From positions 1 through 64,000 of the forward strand of contig NZ_QOVA01000022.1 of assembly GCF_003332275.1 (NCBI RefSeq): a stretch of 64,000 bases of DNA, given 5' to 3'. The stretch is from Edaphovirga cremea. GTDB lineage: Bacteria > Pseudomonadota > Gammaproteobacteria > Enterobacterales > Enterobacteriaceae. Both the position numbers and the translations under genes were made by a program. Below the pieces are notes generated by a model. It was given only the letters and a program-made list of their open reading frames with translations, made no database searches and was not told where the DNA came from. How positions within the stretch are numbered: the stretch's first letter is position 1; the number at the start of each line of letters is the position of its first letter. Positions 41,728-48,760 of this stretch are shown here, piece by piece.

Positions 41728-42100
41728 TAATTACAATGAGACGCTCGAGAACGTCATGGTTATTTACCGTGCAGAATATTCAGTGTTCGCAAATAAAAAT
41801 ACAAATGATATTTTTCTTAAAAATAATGATTTCATGCTCATACTCATGTTTATAAATTAAATAATAAAAATATCACACAGGAAAGTGTTTATTTTCCACT
41901 CACCAAGAGTGCGTTTTTTGCCCATCTTAACCGGATGAAGTCTATTACTCTGAATGAATAAGGAATGGAGATTTTATTTAGATAATTAGTTGGTAAGTAT
42001 TATCTTTAGAAAATATCTGTAAGAAAAACCTGTTTAAAAATCTTATGGATTCCAATCACTAAGATTTTTATTGCTGACTTTCATCATACTAGGACATTCT

Positions 42101-47999: not shown

Positions 48000-48016
48000 T
48001 TTACGCGTTGAAATAT

Positions 48017-48760
48017 GCACTACAAAATACAACACACCCGCGACAAAACCCCCGAACATCCGCCGAAATAAAGGGCTATTCTGGTTCCCATAGCATCAGG
48101 AACCAAACAAAGGGAATAAGTAATAAAGATTCGATGGCATATTTAACCCGGAGCCTGATTATCTTCCCTTAGACGGAAATTACAATTTGAAACACTCAGT
48201 ACAAAACACAACAGGGAAGCGACAAAAGTCCCGAACATAACAGGAAATAAGCCGTTAATATTATTTCACACCAAGGGAAAGGTAAGGGAAGAAGTAAAGA
48301 AAGGAATCGGCTAGGTAATTACTGTGACAAAGGAGAAAGGACCGAAGTAAAGAAGGGAGTCGACACAGTAATGTTCATAATAGGGAAGAAAGGAAGAAGG
48401 GACGCGACACGGTGATAACCGTGGCAAGGGAAAAGGAAGGCAGTACAGAAGGGAGTCTACGCAGTAATGAATGTAATAAAGAAAAAGGAAAGAAGTCACG
48501 AAAGGAATCGATACAATAATTATTGCAGCTAGGGAAAAGGAAAGCAGCAAAGAAAGGACGCTACGCGAAAAATATCGCGATAAAAAGGGACTAAAGTCAC
48601 GAAAGGAATCGGCCAGGTAATTACTATGATAAAGGAGAAAGGACCGAAGTAAAGAAGGGAGTCGACACAGTAATTACCATTACCACACCAAGGGAAGTAA
48701 AAAATAGAAAGGAATCGACGTACCATAGAAAATGCAAAGGAATATACCATTTTAAGAACA
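48017..48760. repeat. Array of about nine purine-rich repeats of about 50 bp
   Basis: From 48299 the plus strand shows head-to-tail units starting AAAGGAATCG or AAGGGAGTCG at about 48299, 48354, 48399, 48449, 48500, 48553, 48601, 48654 and 48706. Each has a short palindromic middle (for example CACGG-TGATA-CCGTG, CGCGA-AAAATA-TCGCG, CAATAATTATTG) and a purine linker like AAGGGAAAAGGAAAGAAGT. The 74-bp blocks 48299-48372 and 48601-48674 differ at three positions. Two copies of another motif (ACAAAACACAACA...GCGACAAAAGTCCCGAACAT) precede them at about 48017 and 48195. No gene is called in 48000-48921. Confidence 0.85.

Follow-up and report, generated by a model that had tools for sequence, protein, structure and literature searches.

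What does a run of structured, purine-rich repeats do between a two-component operon and the gene that converges on it? The stretch of Edaphovirga cremea DNA analysed here (64,000 nucleotides, hereafter the window) raises this question at positions 48300‒48759 of the + strand, where nine tandem units of 44‒53 nt follow each other without spacers. The best-known sponges of the RNA-binding protein CsrA are compact sRNAs that present GGA in hairpin loops, and the repeats carry GGA in number, so the comparison with CsrA sites runs through the analysis below.

The repeat array, its neighbours, and its relatives

The units, u1 to u9, start at 48300, 48353, 48397, 48449, 48501, 48553, 48602, 48655, and 48708, with unit-to-unit spacings of 53, 44, 52, 52, 52, 49, 53, and 53 nt. 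An independent TRF call (48284‒48677, period 52, score 164, the top of seven rows in the window) agrees with the roughly nine spacer-free units that a sequence-only reading of the window had claimed. Each unit consists of a block AARGGANBCK, looser at the four positions after AARGGA, a 16-bp dyad (columns 12‒27 of the unit, consensus CACAGTAATTACTGTG), and a purine linker. Between unit pairs, identity is highest in the block (79%), lower in the dyad (52%) and linker (51%), and falls to 36% at the linker end. The purine content is 72%, and the description of the array as purine-rich is borne out by the window's purine-richest 400 nt, which it holds (start 48273, 74.8%; window mean 50.2, sd 3.4). 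The reported 74-bp duplication with three changes was recovered as the last 74 nt of an 81-nt pair (48292‒48372 and 48594‒48674) with 94% identity.

A protein-coding array was ruled out by 5 to 15 stops in each of the six frames, and a 92-aa minus-strand ORF overlapping the array was taken as spurious. Since the array is a single locus in its own genome, a dispersed repeat of the REP/BIME type was also ruled out, and no Rfam family matches it. Two short tandem repeats lie elsewhere in the window, one of 19 bp (44179‒44236, 3.1 copies, 92% matches) and a perfect one of 18 bp (58846‒58897, 2.9 copies).

The array is located 3′ of a response regulator with Response_reg and Trans_reg_C domains (45922‒46641, + strand) and a sensor histidine kinase assigned by domains and homology search (46638‒47999, + strand), on the same strand as both. 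From the other side, the gene of a WrbA-like flavoprotein (48922‒49551, − strand; domains, blastn) converges on it. The label RstAB-like, given to the system by the sequence-only reading, holds only distantly. The best match of the kinase in other family genomes is 32% (246 searched, own included), and another match in its own genome, at contig C7 (30%), is the better RstB candidate; judged by homology, the array-side kinase is divergent from RstB and is not RstB itself. In a search of the order (394 genomes), no genome but its own passes E 1e-56. Its close homologues (98, 83, 49, and 47%) come only from assembled contigs, and a search of genome contigs gave two distant kinases of 26% and 22%. 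Further upstream, the protein encoded at 42071‒43534 combines DUF1996 and CBM96 domains, to our knowledge an unusual pair in such a setting.

Before the array, a segment of about 130 bp comprising a leader and the start of a unit is present twice, as an older copy at 48001‒48133 (+ strand), which has lost the block GGA, and as a second copy at 48180‒48309 (+ strand), which runs into u1 (alignment score 84, against a maximum of 46 in 300 shuffles). The start of the duplicated leader, from 47987 on, is C-rich and G-poor and is a possible Rho site. This Rho-like + strand tract, which starts at the kinase stop, could terminate transcription of the operon ahead of the array.

The unit was searched as a covariance model, as the sequence-only reading had proposed, in 392 family genomes that include its own and no second species of the genus. 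It gave nine matches in the own genome and no match in the 391 others; as no more than 15 first-look candidates were scored for each genome, weak relatives may have escaped it. Presence in one strain only, which that reading had held against a selected element, may apply, with 0 copies in the 391 other family genomes, none of them a second species of the genus. A pattern of three successive blocks gave five overlapping matches in the own genome and one in one of the 391 others (genome G281, contig C7, 236766‒236884); the latter is a different tandem repeat with GAAAGGATACC units and was rejected as a relative. By blastn, 47990‒48800 had no match in E. coli genomes and 48240‒48780 had none in phages, while 46000‒50500 matched 36 plasmid records at 60‒80% identity, the 20 listed of which match nanE, wrbA, or parts of the response regulator and none the array. 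A search of sixty genomes, own included, returned besides the array itself one 26-nt match, outside the array. One pattern matched twice in viral contigs, each time singly and outside any array, and these matches were taken as chance, as were the 87 stretches found with a looser pattern, each of the 80 listed having one match. Among the titles listed from the open-access literature searched, none describes an array of this kind.

ANGGA sites in blocks and linkers

The segment 48259‒48760 holds 25 GGAs and no TCC. All 25 GGAs stand in ANGGA (14 AAGGA and 11 AGGGA), nine in blocks and 16 in linkers, two of the latter before u1; each unit has one block ANGGA and one or two in its linker. Outside the array, ANGGA makes up about 25% of the GGAs in the window (202/823 on the + strand and 207/815 on the − strand), and in the three CsrBs of the same genome 9/25, 9/25, and 10/21. 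ARGGA occurs 25 times compared with 6.2 in shuffles; the best 502-nt window has 26, and the next best on either strand of the 64 kb has 4. Among 147 loci excluding the array's own, the densest 498-nt stretch, both strands considered, has 18 and belongs to a repetitive viral contig, and CsrB stretches have 12. In Campylobacter, ANGGA is present in 324 of 328 CsrA targets (PMC4894983).

The spacing of these sites is regular. Successive block GGAs lie 16, 17, 8, 17, 17, 17, 17, 17, and 18 nt downstream of the last linker GGA before them, so that 16‒18 nt is kept in eight of nine junctions though unit lengths vary, the exception being the shortened u2. A shuffle gives P = 5e-5 for this spacing but ignores the shared ancestry of the units, and such shuffle P values overstate the surprise. 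CsrA dimers bridge sites at distances of 10‒63 nt, for which the printed optimum is >18 nt (PMC7652899), or of about 10‒55 nt (PMC6028588). The mean unpaired probability of the GGAs is 0.64 in the array against 0.52 (sd 0.06) in shuffles, and 0.56 against 0.37 for CsrB1, which weakly favours a decoy.

When the base preceding each unit is included, the block reads G-A-[A-R-G-G-A-N]-U-C, and nine such sites lie between 48299 and 48717 on the + strand, with loops starting at 48301, 48354, 48398, 48450, 48502, 48554, 48603, 48656, and 48709. The outer G-C pair is present in all nine units and the inner A-U pair in seven, u3 and u6 having A.G instead. At the third position the bases are usually A and G, which do not pair, while all four units that differ do pair (A-U in u4 and u6, C-G in u5 and u7). 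Seven of the nine units consequently show an ANGGAX hexaloop on a stem of 2‒3 bp. A stem of at least 2 bp is found at 7/9 block GGAs compared with 0/16 of the other array GGAs, and the count of hexaloop stems in 1000 shuffles has a mean of 0.66 and a maximum of 5. Columns 1‒6 of the block are the most conserved six-column window of the unit (0.91; permutation P = 0.005) and contain five of the seven invariant columns; A-N-GGA is kept in all nine blocks while about half of the dyad and linker positions vary between units.

The high-affinity CsrA/RsmE site is an ANGGAX hexaloop placed directly on a stem, and stemless sites bind 10- to 1000-fold more weakly (PMC4005645). The array blocks share this register in 7/9 units, but on stems of only 2‒3 bp. 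RNAfold forms none of these stems, which are too short for it, and the likeness is thus a match of register, with no stable fold predicted. The impression of the sequence-only reading that GGA is not clearly in the loops gives way, once the block is re-phased, to this geometry on a very short stem.

A diverged tenth copy spans 48756‒48780, just past the end given for the array. It comprises the site GAAC-AGGGAT-GTTC (48756‒48769, + strand), an ANGGAX hexaloop on a 4-bp stem, and a small hairpin, GTTA-CTT-TAAC (48770‒48780, + strand), at the dyad's place in the unit. Its loop follows that of u9 by 51 nt, which is one period, and the spacing to it is 23 nt; with this site counted, 16‒18 nt is found in 8/10 junctions. 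From the loop outward the stem reads C-G, A-T, A-T, G-C, whereas in most units the pairs are A-T and G-C with mismatches beyond; both letters of each of the two inner pairs are therefore changed, from A-T to C-G and from G-C to A-T. Within the site stands ACARGGATGT, which is the core of RUACARGGAUGU, the SELEX consensus of CsrA (PMC7652899). This core occurs once in the window and nine times on both strands of the 5.19-Mb genome, and a reversed control pattern occurs three times. Since the window has nine ANGGAN hexaloops with stems of at least 4 bp, the stem alone is not rare; a SELEX core in register at the array end is.

Pairing, folding, and transcription signals

The sequence-only reading had also held that the palindromes differ in sequence and keep pairing. 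This pairing is real but uneven. At the registered 8-pair dyad, u1 to u9 have 5, 2, 7, 4, 7, 6, 5, 5, and 3 Watson-Crick pairs, where the window background gives P(≥6) = 0.005 and P(≥7) = 0.0006. The dyads of u3 (CACGGTGATAACCGTG, 48408‒48423, 7/8 pairs), u5 (TACAATAATTATTGCA, 48512‒48527, 7/8), and u6 (CGCGAAAAATATCGCG, 48564‒48579, 6/8) are strong and use different letters, and those of u2, u4, and u9 are poor. Eight dyad changes are compensated on both sides, while 2.6 are expected (P = 0.0013); a column shuffle gives 4.2 (P = 0.014), and P is 0.021 when whole half-sites are permuted. In a pair counter with five measures, the observed values were reached by 50, 39, 21, 159, and 24 of 500 shuffles, and the dyad structure exceeded its six slid versions on all five. 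RNAalifold predicted no consensus pair from the units. Dyad pairing is thus kept above the drift expectation, though modestly, and the proposed selection for hairpins gains modest support from the pair counts, compensated changes, and pair counter, and none from RNAalifold. Template switching could keep the pairing as well as selection could.

The array's + strand folds about as shuffled sequence does (z −1.57, and −0.03 at span 40), while the − strand folds better (z −3.95 and −2.46). Hairpins with stems of at least 3 bp hold five of the 25 array GGAs in their loops, and those with 4 bp none; the corresponding numbers for the three CsrBs are 17/25, 17/25, and 13/21 at 3 bp, with 11/25 at 4 bp for csrB1. 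These CsrBs lie in tandem on one strand (contig C70, 46739‒48645; 183‒240 bits; csrB1 and csrB2 98% identical) in a genome with one CsrA gene. More than two CsrBs were found in none of 59 other family genomes (in a sample of 99, at E 1e-8). The RF00018 covariance model of CsrB, which matches them, has no match in the window at gathering score, and an Rfam search of 47900‒48950 with E up to 5 gave no RF00018; its single match, to rdlD in the leader, has 16.9 bits and falls well short of the family's cut-off. A simple consensus scan found no + strand terminator-like site in 47500‒49200 and promoter-like sites at chance. On the − strand, a terminator-like hairpin (48869‒48899) follows the converging gene but is weak, with two such hairpins found compared with 1.9 in shuffles.

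A proposed CsrA decoy among other explanations

We consider that the array, if transcribed, would probably serve as a decoy for CsrA, and we give this predicted function a probability of about 0.48. Under this reading, a predicted non-coding tract 3′ of the two-component operon would take up many CsrA dimers. Transcribed with the operon or from a promoter not seen in the scan, its RNA would carry about nine dimer-sized CsrA site pairs between hairpins, and each ANGGA pair, 16‒18 nt apart, would be bridged by one dimer. The dyads may serve as spacers or protect the RNA, the array may have grown by duplication of units, and its RNA would titrate CsrA by drawing dimers off mRNA targets. The sequence-only reading had itself suggested a CsrA-type decoy, and this suggestion now appears stronger on sequence grounds, given ANGGA at 25/25 GGAs, the hexaloop register in 7/9 units, the 16‒18 nt spacing, the SELEX-type tenth site, and the CsrA gene. 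The tenth site raised our estimate from 0.38 to the present value and lowered that for a neutral repeat from about one in three to little over one in four. Against a decoy are the missing + strand terminator and chance-level promoters, block stems of 2‒3 bp and GGA hairpins much weaker than those of the CsrBs, folding that is at chance on the + strand and better on the − strand, the three CsrBs that the genome already has, the Rho-like tract ahead of the array, and the older leader copy without the block GGA. The main weakness of the decoy reading is that no relative outside the own genome offers a comparative test of conservation. Its fuller form, a sponge that grows by tandem duplication and is read with the two-component operon, the unit being a dimer-sized ANGGA pair and unit number setting how much CsrA is drawn off, is more tentative, at perhaps one chance in three.

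The main rival is a neutral, purine-rich minisatellite in a convergent intergenic gap, its palindromes mended by template switching from arm to arm and its ANGGA pattern descended from a single founder unit. A recent 74-bp duplication among the tandem copies, a location between converging genes, and confinement to one genome all fit this account, as do the several poor dyads, the lack of an RNAalifold pair, and the chance-level + strand folding; in yeast, template switching extends arm identity in imperfect palindromes (PMC3820800). Neutrality accounts less readily for a block that keeps A-N-GGA in 9/9 units though about half of the dyad and linker positions differ, for a spacing that stays constant while unit length varies, and for a SELEX-type site with a changed stem one period further on, and we regard it as unlikely. 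The − strand suggests another function, namely a Rho-loading tract. RNA entering from the side of wrbA would be rich in C and YC and poor in G, and Rho would block antisense transcription before it enters the two-component genes. On this strand the array has 99 YC in 502 nt, a value that none of 2540 windows sampled on either strand reaches (mean 59.7, sd 11.3), and its excess of C over G in 78 nt is at most 22 (z 3.2). However, such richness follows from purine richness alone, a Rho tract predicts neither the ANGGA register nor the 16‒18 nt spacing nor the dyads, and a terminator-like hairpin already lies 3′ of wrbA. Rho sites are C>G and unstructured (PMC9160355); the − strand has the C>G, YC-rich feature of such a utilisation site but is structured (z −3.95), and this explanation seems improbable to us.

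Two further possibilities are each very improbable. As a Shine-Dalgarno or Hfq decoy, the purine tracts would bind either 30S subunits or Hfq, the latter on its distal face; the 14 AAGGA agree with this, but four ARN triplets in a row occur less often than by chance (2 vs 4.9) and GGAG is at chance (5 vs 4.7), which also tells against the Shine-Dalgarno mimicry offered by the sequence-only reading as a driver. As an array of DNA sites, for example a centromere-like cluster of operator palindromes, the locus would be explained by its nine dyads, about one per 52 bp. The dyad letters vary while pairing is kept, which a sequence-specific binder would not allow, and the eight neighbours scanned (42071‒50310) have no ParA-type (partition) domain.

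If the decoy reading is true, the modular array would show a sponge arising quickly from one short duplicated unit, and CsrA titration would be tied to a single signalling operon. As the units differ in site number and spacing, they would also form a natural series for how both set CsrA capacity.

The array resembles several known systems in part. The sopC of plasmid F consists of 43-bp repeats, each with a dyad, and such centromeres share with the array tandem units that each carry a 16-bp dyad, but in the array the dyad sequence is not conserved and the neighbours scanned lack a partition domain. The RNA of type III toxin-antitoxin systems is a repeat array adjoining a ToxN-type gene, and no ToxN-type toxin domain was found in the eight neighbours at 42071‒50310. 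Like the sponges CsrB/CsrC and RsmX/Y/Z, the array would carry many GGAs on one RNA, its 25 equalling the 25 each of csrB1 and csrB2, with hairpins between the sites and CsrA encoded in the genome. It differs from CsrB in having short-stem hexaloops and open linkers (5/25 vs 17/25 stable), in its tandem 52-nt repeats, and in showing neither a promoter of its own nor an intrinsic terminator. The flaA leader of Campylobacter is an mRNA-borne CsrA sponge (PMC4894983) in which ANGGA sites on an operon transcript, and not on a dedicated sRNA, take up CsrA, as the array's may; flaA has few sites in a 5′ leader, and the array 25 in a possible 3′ region. With bacterial minisatellites the array shares tandem growth by duplication and presence in one genome only, and it is set apart from them by a conserved core resembling a protein site, a fixed spacing, and variable dyads that remain paired.
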